DNA of 64,000 bases from Pandoraea thiooxydans (GTDB lineage: Bacteria > Pseudomonadota > Gammaproteobacteria > Burkholderiales > Burkholderiaceae), in assembly GCF_001931675.1 (NCBI RefSeq), contig NZ_CP014839.1, forward strand, positions 3,162,001-3,226,000. Direction: 5' to 3'. The translations under genes and the position numbers were made by a program. The notes beneath the pieces are model-generated. The model searched no databases and was not told the DNA's origin. It was given only the letters and a program-made list of their open reading frames with translations. Position 1 is the first letter of the stretch; every line of letters begins with the position of its first letter. Of the stretch, positions 5,433-13,923 are shown one piece after another.

Positions 5433-6656
5433 TCAGTGGACCCGGCCAGCATCGCGCAGCACCCACAGCAAGCCGGCCAGCGGCAGGATGGGAATGGCTG
5501 CGCACAGCAGCACCGCCCGATCGCCGAATTGGTCGATCACCAGGCCGAAGGCAAGCGGTGCGGCCACCGTGATTAGGTTGCTCACGGCCTGAAAGCCCGC
5601 GTTCGCACGCGGCAGCTCCTCGATCGGCACCGCGTCCGCGACCAGCGCGAGGGCGACCGGGTAGGTCAATCCGTGCGGCGCGCCGAGAATTGCCAGCGCA
5701 AACATGAAAAGACCGATGCCGTGACCGAACGCCAGGAGACCGATGCCGCACAGCGTGGCCGCGACGCACACACCGAACAATCTCAAGCGATGTCCGACGG
5801 CAGGCCAACGCGTCAGTGCAACGCGGCAGAGGAACGAGACCGTGAAGAAGATTGCAATGCCCACCTCGGTGGTCGAAGCGGGGATGTGATACAGGGACTT
5901 GCCGATCAGGCCGATGAAAACGACGACCAGCGAGAAGGGAACCATGTAAACCGCCTGGCCGCATACGGCAAGGCACCACTTCTGGTTGCGAAACAGCGAC
6001 CCGAGGCCCGCCATCGATGCCCAGAACGAGGCCGGCGCCGCAGGCGCCGCGTCGGTCGTTGCCTGGCTTTGGCGTGTCACCCTGGCACCGATCAACGCGA
6101 TCGGCAGAAACGCCAGATACGCCGCCGACAGGTGCTCATGCGCGGCTGACAGGACAACAGACTCGTAGATCGGGCCAAGCGTAAGACTGATCGAGAGCAC
6201 CAGCGCCAACGTGGCAAAGGCGCGCCCGCGAGTCGCGTGGGTTCGGTCGCCCTGGTTCGACGCACGCTGGCCGATGGCAGTGGCCGCGCTCGGCAGCACA
6301 AGGCCGCCCGCGACACCCAGAAGCAGCGCGCCGACCAGGAGCATGAACTGGGCCGGGATGAGAAAGCTCACGAGCGAGGCGGTCATGAAGAGCAGGCCCA
6401 CGTAGACCGCCCGCTGTGCGGCACTGGTGCTCAGATGCGCGGTGATCAGCAGCATGGTGAGCACGGCAACCAGGTTGGCACCGGCCGCGATCGCCCCGAT
6501 CGCCGCGCTGCCGAGTCCCAGGGACACGCCCAGCAGCGAGAGCGTGGTCTGCGCCATGTTCTGCGTCGCGCGGAACGCGCCGGTGGCCGTCAGCAAGGGG
6601 GTCGTCTCCGATTCCCTCACTCGCTCGAGTAATCTGCTCGCATAACGGATTGTCAT
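5433..6656 (-). CDS. MFS transporter of unknown substrate
   Basis: 407 residues with about 12 hydrophobic segments. The loop motifs are weak (no canonical GRxxDRxGRR), which fits a drug-efflux-like or metabolite MFS family. ATG at 6656 is chosen over an upstream in-frame ATG at 6671 because GGGGAGG lies seven bases before it. The gene stands alone between the LON-domain protein and the tRNA-Leu gene. I cannot assign a substrate or direction of transport. Confidence 0.8.
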   Translation of the reverse strand: MTIRYASRLLERVRESETTPLLTATGAFRATQNMAQTTLSLLGVSLGLGSAAIGAIAAGANLVAVLTMLLITAHLSTSAAQRAVYVGLLFMTASLVSFLIPAQFMLLVGALLLGVAGGLVLPSAATAIGQRASNQGDRTHATRGRAFATLALVLSISLTLGPIYESVVLSAAHEHLSAAYLAFLPIALIGARVTRQSQATTDAAPAAPASFWASMAGLGSLFRNQKWCLAVCGQAVYMVPFSLVVVFIGLIGKSLYHIPASTTEVGIAIFFTVSFLCRVALTRWPAVGHRLRLFGVCVAATLCGIGLLAFGHGIGLFMFALAILGAPHGLTYPVALALVADAVPIEELPRANAGFQAVSNLITVAAPLAFGLVIDQFGDRAVLLCAAIPILPLAGLLWVLRDAGRVH

Positions 6657-6989: not shown

Positions 6990-7290
6990 TGGTGCCGGGG
7001 ACCGGACTCGAACCGGCAAGCCCGAAGGCGGCGGATTTTCTTCACACTGCGTCTTTCGACGCCAGCTGGGCTGTTCGTGCGCTGGACTATGCCTTCGCCT
7101 TGGCGTGTGCTTTAGGCGCCCCCCGTCTAGTCTCTACACCTTCCCGCCGCTTGCGCGCCGGGCTTGGCTCGGCGTTGCCTCGGCCCGGGGCCAGGGGTTT
7201 CGCCGAATTTGAAGGGTTCTGCACCGCCCGTTTCCGGGCGGGCACTCAAGTATTTAAGTCCGCTATGTTTACCAATTTCATCACCCCGGC
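6990..7290 (-). tRNA. leuZ: tRNA-Leu(UAA), interrupted by a group I intron
   Basis: Acceptor arms GCCGGGG (7284-7290) and CCCCGGC (6994-7000) pair perfectly. Discriminator A and an encoded CCA (6990-6992) end the gene. The T arm reads GGTTCGAGTCC and the variable arm is long, as in class II tRNA. The 5' exon is 7256-7290 and the 3' exon 6990-7039. Joining them gives the anticodon arm GCGGA-CUUAAAA-UCCGC, anticodon UAA, and an 85-nt mature tRNA. In E. coli leuZ follows glyW and cysT downstream of pgsA; here it is 28.7 kb away from tRNA-Cys, in the same orientation. Confidence 0.96.
7040..7255 (-). ncRNA. Group I intron (IC3-like) in the tRNA-Leu(UAA) anticodon loop
   Basis: 216-nt intron inserted after U34, between the first and second anticodon bases. 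P1 forms between the exon end ACUU and GAGU in the intron, giving the diagnostic U-G wobble at the 5' splice site. The last intron base is the required omega-G (7040). P2 is a GC hairpin capped by GAAA. The catalytic core is clear: R element GGTGTAGAGACTAGACGG (7123-7140) and S element GAAGGCATAGTCC (7084-7096), which pair as P7 and are nearly identical to the Azoarcus tRNA-Ile intron. No homing endonuclease is encoded. It is expected to self-splice. Confidence 0.95.
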
Positions 7291-7401: not shown

Positions 7402-7605
7402 ATGCTGGAAAATCTCGACCGAATCGCTCATTCCCTGGACGCTATCGAGTCCGCCGCGCGTGGCGTCGCCATCCGCTTTCCCGAGGCGTCGCAGGAGCTC
7501 TATACGGCGCTGATGGAAGTTCGCAATGCGATCGGCCTGGTCGCGCAGGAGGTGGTGCGCATCGAGCAGGAGCTGCACGCGAATTCCGGCAATGGGCAGT
7601 CCTGA
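7402..7605 (+). CDS. Small conserved-looking hypothetical protein
   Basis: 67 residues, MLENLDRIAHSL to the C terminus, predicted as two amphipathic helices with no cysteine and no membrane segment. ATG at 7402 is preceded by GGAGAG six bases upstream; the frame is open further upstream to 7312, but that part overlaps the tRNA promoter. I do not recognise the family. It may be a small cytosolic helical protein. It precedes egtB by 157 bases and need not belong to that operon. Confidence 0.6.
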   Translation: MLENLDRIAHSLDAIESAARGVAIRFPEASQELYTALMEVRNAIGLVAQEVVRIEQELHANSGNGQS

Positions 7606-7762
7606 GCGCGCGCACCGCCATGCGCATCGCAATGTTACTTGTCCCGACGCGGTGACGTCGTTAAGATAAATCTTGCGCGACACGCCGGTTCGCGCAGGTT
7701 CGGCCGGCACAGTGTCGCAATCCCCATCTACCGATCCAAGCGATCGCAGCCCGGGAGAACCT

Positions 7763-9061
7763 ATGAGCGCAGTTCACGCCGCCCTGCAGGACACCGCGGA
7801 TCCTGGAACATCCATGCTGGCGCAGCGCTTTGCCGTCGTCCGGCGCGCCTCGATCGACCTCTGCGCCGGATTGACAGAGGCGGACATGACAGTGCAGTCG
7901 ATGGATGACGCCAGCCCGCTCAAGTGGCATCTGGCTCACACCACATGGTTTTTCGAAACCTTTCTGCTGATTCCATGCAGTCCGAATTATTCACCGTTCT
8001 CCGCCGATTTCGCCTTTCTTTTCAACTCGTACTACGAAGCGGCCGGTCCGCGGCACCCTCGCCCGCTTCGCGGCCTGCTGACCCGTCCGACACTGCCAGA
8101 GGTGTTGGCGTATCGCGCGCACGTCGATGACGCCATGGCTTTTCTGATCGAGGCCGCGCAGGACGACGCGACCCTCGCGCTGATCGACCTGGGCTTGCAC
8201 CATGAGCAGCAGCATCAGGAGCTGATGCTCACCGACGTGCTGCATCTGTTCGCGCAAAATCCGCTGCGCCCGGTCTACCGCGCGGCCAACCCGGCGCAGC
8301 CTGCGACAGCCGCGCCGGTGCTTGGCGATTTGCACGACTGGGTGGCAGTGAACGGTGGGCGCTTCACTGTCGGCCACGACGGCAATGGCTTCGCATTCGA
8401 TTGCGAGGGACCGAGTCACGACGTTTTGCTACGCGATTTCGCGCTGGCCGCGCAGCCGGTTACCAATGCGCAATGGTGCGCTTTCATCGATGACGGCGGC
8501 TATCGCAATCCAGCGCTGTGGCTCTCGGACGGATGGCAAACCGTCCAGCGCGAGGCGTGGGAGGCACCCCTTTACTGGGAGCGTCGCGACGACCGGTGGT
8601 GGCGCATGACCCTGCATGGCATGCACCCGCTCGATGCGCACGCGCCGGTCAGTCACGTCAGCTATTTCGAAGCGGATGCATTTGCTCGCTGGGCCGGCAA
8701 GCGCCTGCCGACCGAATTCGAATGGGAAGTCGCCGCGCGCGGCACTGCGACGCACGGCCATTTCGCCGACAGCCTCTGGCTCGACCCGCTATCGGGCGCC
8801 AACGCGTCGGCGGCGCGGCTGCGGCAGATGTTCGGCAGCGTCTGGGAATGGACCGCCAGCCCCTACATGTCGTATCCCGGCTTTCGCCCCGCCGCGGGTG
8901 CCGTCGGCGAGTACAACGGCAAGTTCATGTGCGGCCAGTTCGTGCTGCGCGGCGGCTCCTGCGTCACGCCGGCCGGTCACATCCGCGCCACCTACCGGAA
9001 TTTTTTCTACCCACACCAGCGCTGGCAATTCACCGGTCTGCGTCTGGCGGAGGACCGCTAG
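7763..9061 (+). CDS. egtB: Hercynine oxygenase EgtB (ergothioneine biosynthesis)
   Basis: 432 residues. The N-terminal DinB-like domain carries LKWHLAH (residues 53-59) and HHEQQHQE (146-153), which supply the histidines that bind the non-haem iron. The C-terminal formylglycine-generating-enzyme-type domain shows VTNAQWCAFIDDGGY, the GKRLPTEFEWE motif and a final NFFYPHQRWQFTGLRLAED. It joins a thiol donor to hercynine, forming the sulfoxide intermediate of ergothioneine. ATG at 7763 follows GGGAGAA; the 30 upstream in-frame residues look non-coding. Its stop TAG shares a base with the GTG start of egtD. Confidence 0.93.
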   Translation: MSAVHAALQDTADPGTSMLAQRFAVVRRASIDLCAGLTEADMTVQSMDDASPLKWHLAHTTWFFETFLLIPCSPNYSPFSADFAFLFNSYYEAAGPRHPRPLRGLLTRPTLPEVLAYRAHVDDAMAFLIEAAQDDATLALIDLGLHHEQQHQELMLTDVLHLFAQNPLRPVYRAANPAQPATAAPVLGDLHDWVAVNGGRFTVGHDGNGFAFDCEGPSHDVLLRDFALAAQPVTNAQWCAFIDDGGYRNPALWLSDGWQTVQREAWEAPLYWERRDDRWWRMTLHGMHPLDAHAPVSHVSYFEADAFARWAGKRLPTEFEWEVAARGTATHGHFADSLWLDPLSGANASAARLRQMFGSVWEWTASPYMSYPGFRPAAGAVGEYNGKFMCGQFVLRGGSCVTPAGHIRATYRNFFYPHQRWQFTGLRLAEDR

Positions 9062-10047
9062 TGTCATCGAACCCATTATCCGCATATGCCTGTCCGTCGC
9101 TGCCGCAAGACGCCTTTGCCAGCGCCACGCTCGAAGGCCTCGGGCGCTCGCAGAAGATCATCCCCTGTGCGTGGCTCTACGATCAGCGCGGTTCGGAGCT
9201 TTTCGAGGAAATCACCCAACTCGACGAGTACTACCCGACCCGCACCGAAATCGGCATTCTGCAGGCCTGTGCGCCATTGCTGGCCGAGGCGATCGCGCCC
9301 GGCGCGGTGGTCGTCGAGCTGGGTAGCGGCTCGAGCCGCAAGACGCCGCTGCTGTTACGCGCGCTGCGCGAGCCGCATGCCTATGTGCCGGTCGATATCG
9401 CGGAAGACTTCTTGCGCGCATCGGCCAGCGCGCTCGCCGCGGATTTCCCCGAACTGACGGTATTGCCGGTGGTAGCCGACTTTACGCAGCCGTTCCACCT
9501 GCCGCCGCAGGTCAGCGGCACGCCGCACCCGCGCCTCGGTTTTTTCCCGGGTTCGACCATCGGCAATTTCACGCCCGCCGAGGCGGTGCGCTTCTTGCAG
9601 CATGCCGCCAGACTACTGGGGCACAACCGGCGCATGGTGATCGGCGTCGACGCCACCAAGGATCCCGCGGTATTGGTGCCCGCCTATAACGACAGCCGGG
9701 GCATCACAGCCGAGTTCAACCTGAATCTGCTGCATCGCATCAACCTGGAGCTGGGCGCCGATTTCGATGTGAACGCGTTCCGCCACGAAGCGCGCTACCA
9801 CGACAGGCTGGGACGCATCGAGATGCATCTGGTCAGCCAGCGCAAGCAGATCGTCAATCTGCTCGGGCACCGTTTCTCTTTCGAGGCGGACGAGACGATC
9901 CACACCGAGAATTCCTACAAATATTCGGTCCCGGAATTCCAGGCGCTGGCCGCCTCGGCCGGCTGGCACCCCCAAGCGGTATGGCAGGACCCGGCTGGAC
10001 GCTTCAGCGTGCATCTTTTGAGCAATATTGTCTCGGAAACAGCGTAA
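9061..10047 (+). CDS. egtD: L-histidine N-alpha-methyltransferase EgtD
   Basis: 328 residues, the normal EgtD length. SAM-binding motif VVELGSGSSRKTPLLL at residues 84-99; family motifs AWLYDQRGSELFEEITQLDEYYPTR-like (residues 37-61, quoted in part) and FFPGSTIGNF. It trimethylates histidine to hercynine, the substrate of EgtB. The start is GTG, whose G is the last base of the egtB stop (TAGTG), so the pair is strictly coupled. No EgtA, EgtC or EgtE homologue is next to it, so the thiol donor and the C-S lyase step must be encoded elsewhere. Confidence 0.93.
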   Translation: MSSNPLSAYACPSLPQDAFASATLEGLGRSQKIIPCAWLYDQRGSELFEEITQLDEYYPTRTEIGILQACAPLLAEAIAPGAVVVELGSGSSRKTPLLLRALREPHAYVPVDIAEDFLRASASALAADFPELTVLPVVADFTQPFHLPPQVSGTPHPRLGFFPGSTIGNFTPAEAVRFLQHAARLLGHNRRMVIGVDATKDPAVLVPAYNDSRGITAEFNLNLLHRINLELGADFDVNAFRHEARYHDRLGRIEMHLVSQRKQIVNLLGHRFSFEADETIHTENSYKYSVPEFQALAASAGWHPQAVWQDPAGRFSVHLLSNIVSETA

Positions 10048-13020: not shown

Positions 13021-13923
13021 ATGAAATATCACCAGTTGCGCGCCTTCGTCAGCGCCGCCGAGCACGGCAGCATCCGCGCCGCGGCGCGCGCGCTGTTTCT
13101 GTCGCAGGCCGCCGTGACCAAGGCGCTGCGCGAACTGGAAGACGACGCCGGCTTGCCGCTGATCGCGCGCAATGCACGCGGCATCCAGCTGACCCAGGAT
13201 GGGCAGCGGCTGTTGATGCGCGCCCGGCTGATCGTGCGGCAAATGCAGCAGGCGCGCGATGAATTGAATCAGTCGCAAGGCATCGATACGGGCAGCGTGG
13301 CAATCGGCCTGACACCGGCGGTTGTCCTGACGGTGCTGCCGGACGCGCTCAAGGCATTCCGTCAGCGCTATCGCAACGTCGCGCTGCGTCTGGTCGAAGG
13401 CCTTGCGCCGATCGTCGTGCCGGGGGTGCGCAACGGCACGCTCGACTTCGCCATGACGGTGCAAAGCAATGTGTCTCTGGGCAACGATTTCGTCACCGAG
13501 TCCTGCTTCCACGCCCAGCAGGCGATAGCCGCGCGGGCCGGCCACCCGGTGCTGGCCGATCCGTCGCCGGCCGCCTTGGCCGCGCAGGAATGGGCGCTGA
13601 GCAGCCGTCTGCAGGAGGGGCACGGCGGGCTGATCCAGCAAGTATTCGCGACCAGCGGCGTCGCGCCGCCCGAGCGGATCCTCGTGTGCGAGTCATACAG
13701 CACGGCGGTCGCGCTGGTGCGCAATACCGATTTGCTGAGCCTGTTCCCCGAACCCTTGCTGGCGCTGCCCGAATGCACCGGCATCGTCGCCGTGCCGGCG
13801 CGGCTGCCGAGCCTGAGCACCGAGATCAGTCTGGTGCGTCGCGCCGACGTGCCGCTGACGCCGGCCGCGGCCTATCTGGCGGCATGCCTGATGCAAGCCG
13901 GCCGCACGCGCTTTCCGGGTTGA
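13021..13923 (+). CDS. LysR family transcriptional regulator
   Basis: 300 residues. N-terminal winged helix-turn-helix with HQLRAFVSAAEHGSIRAAAR (4-23) and the SQAAVTKALRELE recognition helix, then a periplasmic-binding-like effector domain. ATG at 13021 follows CAGGAG. It is divergent from the M20 amidohydrolase/MHS transporter pair, which it probably activates in response to the substrate or product. The effector is unknown. Confidence 0.92.
   Translation: MKYHQLRAFVSAAEHGSIRAAARALFLSQAAVTKALRELEDDAGLPLIARNARGIQLTQDGQRLLMRARLIVRQMQQARDELNQSQGIDTGSVAIGLTPAVVLTVLPDALKAFRQRYRNVALRLVEGLAPIVVPGVRNGTLDFAMTVQSNVSLGNDFVTESCFHAQQAIAARAGHPVLADPSPAALAAQEWALSSRLQEGHGGLIQQVFATSGVAPPERILVCESYSTAVALVRNTDLLSLFPEPLLALPECTGIVAVPARLPSLSTEISLVRRADVPLTPAAAYLAACLMQAGRTRFPG

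Follow-up and report, generated by a model that had tools for sequence, protein, structure and literature searches.

A group I intron of the Azoarcus and cyanobacterial tRNA type in the tRNA-Leu(UAA) gene of Pandoraea thiooxydans, with relatives on plasmids and phages

Structural RNA genes house most bacterial group I introns, and the phage introns known by 2014 lay in protein-coding genes, according to a 2014 review (PMC3984707). The hosts of group I tRNA introns named in a second source are cyanobacteria and the alpha- and beta-proteobacteria (PMC4033280), and a third describes IC3 introns as lacking P5(a-d) (PMC11835236). The open-access literature that we searched, a scope that leaves most subscription journals outside, yielded no direct report of Leu(UAA) introns in proteobacteria. 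One such intron, in the tRNA-Leu(UAA) gene of a gamma-proteobacterial Pseudomonas isolate, was reportedly described by Vepritskiy et al. (2002, J. Bacteriol.) and likened to the Azoarcus intron. It reportedly resembles the intron described here in occupying tRNA-Leu(UAA) outside cyanobacteria and plastids. With that case, the hosts enumerated in a preliminary description of the present locus (cyanobacterial tRNA-Leu, alpha-proteobacterial tRNA-Arg and Azoarcus tRNA-Ile) form an incomplete list.

The locus lies in a 64,000-nucleotide stretch of the genome of the soil bacterium Pandoraea thiooxydans, hereafter the window. ARAGORN in intron mode reads it as tRNA-Leu(taa) with a 216-nt intron after gene base 35, in base-exact agreement with the intron claimed earlier after U34 of tRNA-Leu(UAA), and the joined exons fold as a normal 85-nt tRNA-Leu(taa) with an ARAGORN score of 114.5 (Table 1). 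The gene was missed by the default ARAGORN run and by Rfam at gathering thresholds. Two other claims of the preliminary description, a P1 U-G pair and a terminal omega-G, are likewise borne out: the U.G pair is invariant among the aligned Leu introns (Table 1), and the last intron base is G, as in 18 of 18 intron rows, the window's included. The covariance-model check proposed there gave a divided answer, in that Rfam RF00028 matches 7265-7082 on the minus strand (E 4.2e-6) and the 31.8 bits fall short of the gathering score of 50. The Azoarcus-type intron L045 is also below that score, at 49.1 bits, so the cut-off has its limit here and does not decide membership. The window intron is the sole RF00028 match in the whole genome (E 4.9e-6). 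No endonuclease gene fits within its 216 nt, which hold just short overlapping reading frames, and it does not belong to the homing, endonuclease-bearing class. Scans beside the tRNA gene returned no promoter- or terminator-like patterns. Elsewhere in the neighbourhood, two overlapping plus-strand reading frames at 7673-10047 carry sulfatase-modifying/DinB and histidine-specific methyltransferase domains, and look like an ergothioneine gene pair (EgtB/EgtD).

Table 1. Coordinates, in the window, of the interrupted tRNA gene, the helices of its intron and the adjoining locus marker.
Feature	Position	Strand	Basis
tRNA-Leu(UAA) gene with intron, CCA encoded	7290..6990	-	ARAGORN intron mode, joined exons
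5' exon, 35 nt, terminal base U34 of the anticodon	7256..7290	-	ARAGORN intron mode
Intron, group I (IC3-type), 216 nt, final base G at 7040	7040..7255	-	RF00028, ARAGORN, alignment
3' exon, 50 nt, first base A35	6990..7039	-	ARAGORN intron mode
P1: exon ACUU with guide GAGU, U34.G at splice site, extension of two A-U pairs	7244..7259	-	U.G in 17/17
P2 hairpin, GAAA loop at 7231-7234	7224..7241	-	Double changes in 6/7 pairs
P3 5' strand, CCCUUC	7211..7216	-	6 pairs, 100% of cells paired, 3 with double changes; strand varies by clade
P4 (7201-7206 with 7169-7174) around P5 (7178-7195)	7169..7206	-	98.0% and 94.1% of cells paired
P6/P6a	7139..7167	-	Alignment
P7 5' strand, guanosine-binding helix	7128..7132	-	100% of cells paired, double changes in 3/5 pairs
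P3 3' strand	7119..7124	-	Alignment
P8	7096..7118	-	100% of cells paired
P7 3' strand	7085..7089	-	Alignment
P9, P9a and P9b (GAAA loop in P9b)	7043..7081	-	Double changes in 9/14 pairs
67-aa gene beside the tRNA, locus marker in intronless genus mates	7402..7605	+	tblastn, 10/11 intronless loci fetched

A P1-P9 structure, drawn up manually on the window sequence, was scored on an alignment of 17 Leu introns that come from the window and from its genus, family and order; L004, almost identical to L003, and L016, which matched piecemeal, were excluded. Standard pairs fill 96.0% of the 1,019 cells, and double-sided changes occur at 32 of 60 pairs; in P7, GACUA/UAGUC is replaced by GAGCA/UGCUC in four sequences. 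None of 500 shuffles attained any of five measures, and sliding the structure by 1-3 columns left just 30-40% of cells paired. The folding energy of the intron alone (-91.7 kcal/mol, z -2.22, with 4 of 200 shuffles equally good) is a modest signal; the covariation is the real evidence, and it rules out a chance pattern or a degenerate remnant. P3-P8 and P4-P6 domains with P7, the mark of a group I intron, are established by that covariation. IC3 introns, beyond the absence of P5a-d, are defined as compact with a core as in Azoarcus, and the window intron is compact, has no P5a-d and carries an Azoarcus-like core. As judged from its sequence, this is a real group I intron of the Azoarcus/cyanobacterial tRNA type in a beta-proteobacterium.

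Leu(UAA) introns of Burkholderia, Paraburkholderia, Trinickia, Mycetohabitans and Ca. Vallotia sit in the same tRNA at the same site as the window's, which is shorter (216 nt versus 248-326 nt in the parsed named records of these genera). We take L045 to be the Azoarcus tRNA-Ile(CAU) IC3 intron, recognised from the crystallised sequence. It resembles the window intron in its IC3-type fold, its GAAA loops and four identical core segments of 15-21 nt, whereas identity across 186 aligned positions of the whole intron is 80%; the earlier statement that the core is near-identical to that of Azoarcus is thus true of the core segments only. The Azoarcus-type intron follows position 36 of tRNA-Ile and the window's follows U34 of tRNA-Leu, and P5 reads CCUAAG/UAUGG in the former and CCUGG/CCGAGG in the latter. 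In place of the CCCUUC of the window intron, the P3 5' strand is GGUGUC in six of seven Ile introns, GGCGUC in the seventh and GCUCUC in 13 of 14 cyanobacterial Leu introns.

The preliminary description regarded the insertion site as a cyanobacterial one taken over by a beta-proteobacterial core, a view that the distribution of sites does not uphold. In an order-wide Rfam scan, which has no lean towards Leu, ARAGORN assigned 11 of 30 loci to Leu(taa) and 8 to Met(cat), the latter calls being interpreted as Ile(CAU). Among 100 chosen loci, a choice that leans towards Leu (as does the R1 core model, built from 23 introns, 16 of them Leu, with the window's among them) and in which some assignments were made by hand, we counted Leu(UAA) 81 times, Ile(CAU) 7, Arg(CCU) 6, Thr(UGU) and Arg(UCU) 2 each, and Leu(CAA) and Ser(UGA) once each. 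For L060 and other Leu rows the best ARAGORN parse was another tRNA, and Leu(UAA) was set by hand from the U34/A35 junction. When named genomes were scanned using a pattern modelled on Leu introns, at least 118 stretches were obtained, 80 of them listed. The matches listed come from cyanobacteria, Burkholderia, Paraburkholderia, Trinickia, Ca. Vallotia, Rhodoferax, Dechloromonas, Niveibacterium, Accumulibacter and a few others, and those among them that parse as Leu(UAA) have the same junction after U34; a few cyanobacterial records were misnamed by ARAGORN and five gave no parse. Alpha and gamma class labels are our reading of kinship labels, with Bradyrhizobium (L123) as the named alpha-proteobacterial case. 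On these assignments, Leu(UAA) after U34 is the commonest site found for this intron type in Pseudomonadota. Three single loci may be recorded here: L063, with the intron in an apparent tRNA-Leu(CAA), where the splice-site pair would be C-G; L066, with the same intron type in an apparent tRNA-Ser(UGA); and L139, a cyanobacterial-type tRNA-Leu intron on a metagenome-assembled contig labelled Tatlockia, which is probably mis-binned.

BLAST of 101 genomes found the intron-bearing gene at 97% identity in two genus mates (G024 and G029), as well as in further genera of the family and order, where identity is 68-87%. Within the genus, 3 of 32 genomes, the window's included, bear the intron. The exon halves abut, leaving an empty site, in 28 of the 29 intronless genus mates; the remaining genome (G006) showed the first half only, among the matches listed. 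Since the 67-aa gene neighbours 10 of 11 empty loci fetched, the intron-bearing and empty genes are alleles of one locus. An RpoB tree was built from 25 of the 101 genomes, picked for presence or absence of the intron, with intronless genomes elsewhere in the family left out and an outgroup that does not form one side of a branch. It places the P. thiooxydans trio outside the intronless Pandoraea (support 88/93) and requires three changes of intron state, which would most simply be three losses, a count that depends on the choice of genomes because these were hand-picked. From the trees we infer loss rather than gain in Pandoraea. The introns of two further genomes, G046 and G056, belong to a different Leu clade, and G046 lies on the Burkholderia side of the RpoB tree; same-site replacement therefore also occurs in the family, and descent is not the whole story. 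Genome samples that overlap, all include the window's genome and were strictly filtered, with introns in any gene counted, gave R1 matches in 194 of 398 family, 74 of 369 class and 42 of 398 phylum genomes, and RF00028 matches in 40 of 399 genomes across the order. The intron family is common in related bacteria, and some phages and plasmids carry it too.

A plasmid relative at ~70% identity occurs on 1,284 records, a count that includes replicons of Mycetohabitans, Ca. Vallotia and Bradyrhizobium; Enterobacterales genera account for at least 1,124 of the 1,284 in the tally. On pCTX-M3 (NC_004464, L120:5990-6288) the intron-bearing gene parses as tRNA-Leu(UAA) and is flanked by a small hypothetical gene and an ATPase gene, next to aac(3)-IId; an aac(3)-IId gene adjoins this copy in both of the two plasmid neighbourhoods opened. 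Among 5,426 complete E. coli genomes, 635 have a match to this copy, and no annotated feature lies under it in the 12 records listed of 658. In the tree its intron groups with one of the alpha/other group (100/98).

Intron-bearing tRNA genes are found on phages as well. In Gordonia phage Daredevil (NC_048021, L122:2919-3230) a tRNA-Lys(UUU) gene, unannotated and about 570 bases from the integrase gene, contains, directly after U34, a 238-nt group I intron that scores 94.5 bits with R1 and goes without a report from Rfam at E 0.001; a short copy of an anticodon arm lies near L122:2750. A core-pattern search of IMG/VR gave at least 120 stretches (L309-L428). Among the 120 listed, 83 parse as intron-bearing tRNAs and 37 do not; 45 of the 83 are Leu(UAA) outright, with Lys, Arg, Ser and Thr also represented. 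A scan of ten loci for further tRNA genes found tRNA or tmRNA genes at eight and none at two; on L383 (locus at 6490-6621), 22 other tRNA genes surround the interrupted one. Seven of ten proteins taken from nine IMG/VR loci match phage families, including rIIA on L317 and L332. In a joint tree with 25 chosen viral introns, 20 form one clade (96/95) that stands weakly beside the alpha/other-group introns and the remaining five fall in three other places, none close to the window intron. One IMG/VR contig, L119, was rejected as an intron; it matched the junction pattern, yet gave no tRNA parse and no Rfam or R1 match.

In whole-length comparison with 98 other introns, the ten closest to the window's are all Burkholderiaceae Leu(UAA) introns, at 85-96% identity. 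Trees and tests on the core alone (135 columns, with L139, L091, L099, L053, L096 and L066 dropped from tree and test as long or suspect) were too weak to reject anything, giving p 0.543 for the window intron's own pair with cyanobacteria and p 0.341 with Ile, and two held trees outscored the free tree. The trees were therefore rebuilt on full introns, with 79 rows of the 99 introns extracted and 211 columns; L063 had no parse, and the long branches L038 and L081 were flagged and retained. The window intron here falls in a 15-row Burkholderiaceae Leu clade (99/99), which includes the Burkholderia, Paraburkholderia and Trinickia introns put in the tree and is nested in a 23-row Burkholderiales Leu clade (95/93). 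Ile introns form one clade and 12 cyanobacterial Leu introns another (100/100 each), the cyanobacterial branch being long. The phylogeny proposed in the preliminary description thus sets the window intron apart from both groups with which it was to be compared. Approximately unbiased (AU) tests that join its 15-row clade to Ile or to cyanobacteria gave p 0.12 and 0.262, and for the 23-row clade p 0.373 and 0.195. Holding all Leu introns on one side gave p 0.014, and all proteobacterial Leu introns p 0.038. The former result disfavours a single origin and speaks for old switches between tRNAs, with the long branches as a caution; the P3 strands that Arg(CCU) introns share with Leu introns of the alpha/other group agree with such switches. 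Old site switching between tRNAs is likely, and an old switch uniting the whole 15-row clade with Ile introns may have occurred.

Besides the interrupted gene, no second tRNA-Leu(UAA) was found in the genome; after it, the spliced tRNA matches tRNA-Leu(CAA) best. By the usual decoding rules UUA should thus be readable only after intron removal. Splicing itself we infer from known group I chemistry. The pre-tRNA would fold into the P1-P9 ribozyme; guanosine bound in P7 would attack after U34, held by the P1 U.G pair; and the freed exon would then attack just behind the terminal G, which would ligate U34 to A35 and set the 216-nt intron free, so that tRNA-Leu(UAA) would decode UUA only after splicing. 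We consider it very probable that this is an ordinary, working, self-removing IC3-type intron, which the Burkholderia/Pandoraea part of Burkholderiaceae has kept chiefly by descent and most Pandoraea have precisely lost. The sub-threshold RF00028 score could be read as the sign of a dead or non-splicing relic. A relic is hardly credible, however, given intact covarying helices, the retained U.G pair and terminal G, a gene kept at 97% identity in two related genomes, and the position of the intron in the sole tRNA-Leu(UAA) gene found. The preliminary description had suggested target switching or transfer. A recent move of an Azoarcus-type tRNA-Ile intron into tRNA-Leu(UAA) in this lineage would account for the four identical core segments, and Ile introns are present in the same family and order; it is nonetheless very unlikely, as the window intron groups with Burkholderiaceae Leu introns, the Ile clade is separate, the P3 5' strands differ, and the AU test rejects joining its own pair to Ile (p 0.022). 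A cyanobacterial donor of the intron, or of the entire tRNA gene, would explain the shared tRNA and insertion site, and joining its own pair to cyanobacteria costs 20.8 log units at AU p 0.097, short of formal rejection. Against this stand the separate long-branch cyanobacterial clade, identities of 64-74% (14 compared) that fall below those to the ten nearest Burkholderiaceae introns, and the frequency of the Leu(UAA)/U34 site in Pseudomonadota; direct cyanobacterial transfer is disfavoured, and we give it very little probability. What may survive of the suggestion is old, deep switching; for the window intron neither a recent target switch nor a cyanobacterial transfer is needed.

Arrival in the Burkholderia/Pandoraea ancestor as part of a complete tRNA-Leu(UAA) gene, intron included, that a phage or plasmid carried, with vertical inheritance since, concerns the route and is compatible with vertical descent. 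Such genes on phage contigs, the phage tRNA-Lys, the 1,284 plasmid records and the same-site replacement seen in Burkholderiaceae are points in its favour; the 25 viral introns of the tree and the plasmid intron L120 all fall outside the window's clade, and we regard this route as improbable. Only a little less doubtful is the wider proposal that endonuclease-free tRNA introns of this type spread as cargo rather than by homing, in complete intron-bearing tRNA genes that phages and conjugative plasmids carry and that can replace the host tRNA-Leu(UAA), the Burkholderiaceae lineage being one settled arrival. By itself, the window intron adds one further host for a known ribozyme family. With intron-bearing and cleanly empty alleles in one genus, gain and loss can be studied there. 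More surprising are the intron-bearing tRNA genes on phage contigs, in Daredevil and on plasmids, which would make the movement of endonuclease-free tRNA introns between lineages testable.

Paired R1 matches were seen on two contigs. L308, an uncultured and unannotated 595-kb phage (LR756511), has matches at 939-1102 and 1449-1563 (22.5 and 56.7 bits), and the IMG/VR contig L362 has matches at 13031-13155 and 13641-13772, ~500 bases apart.
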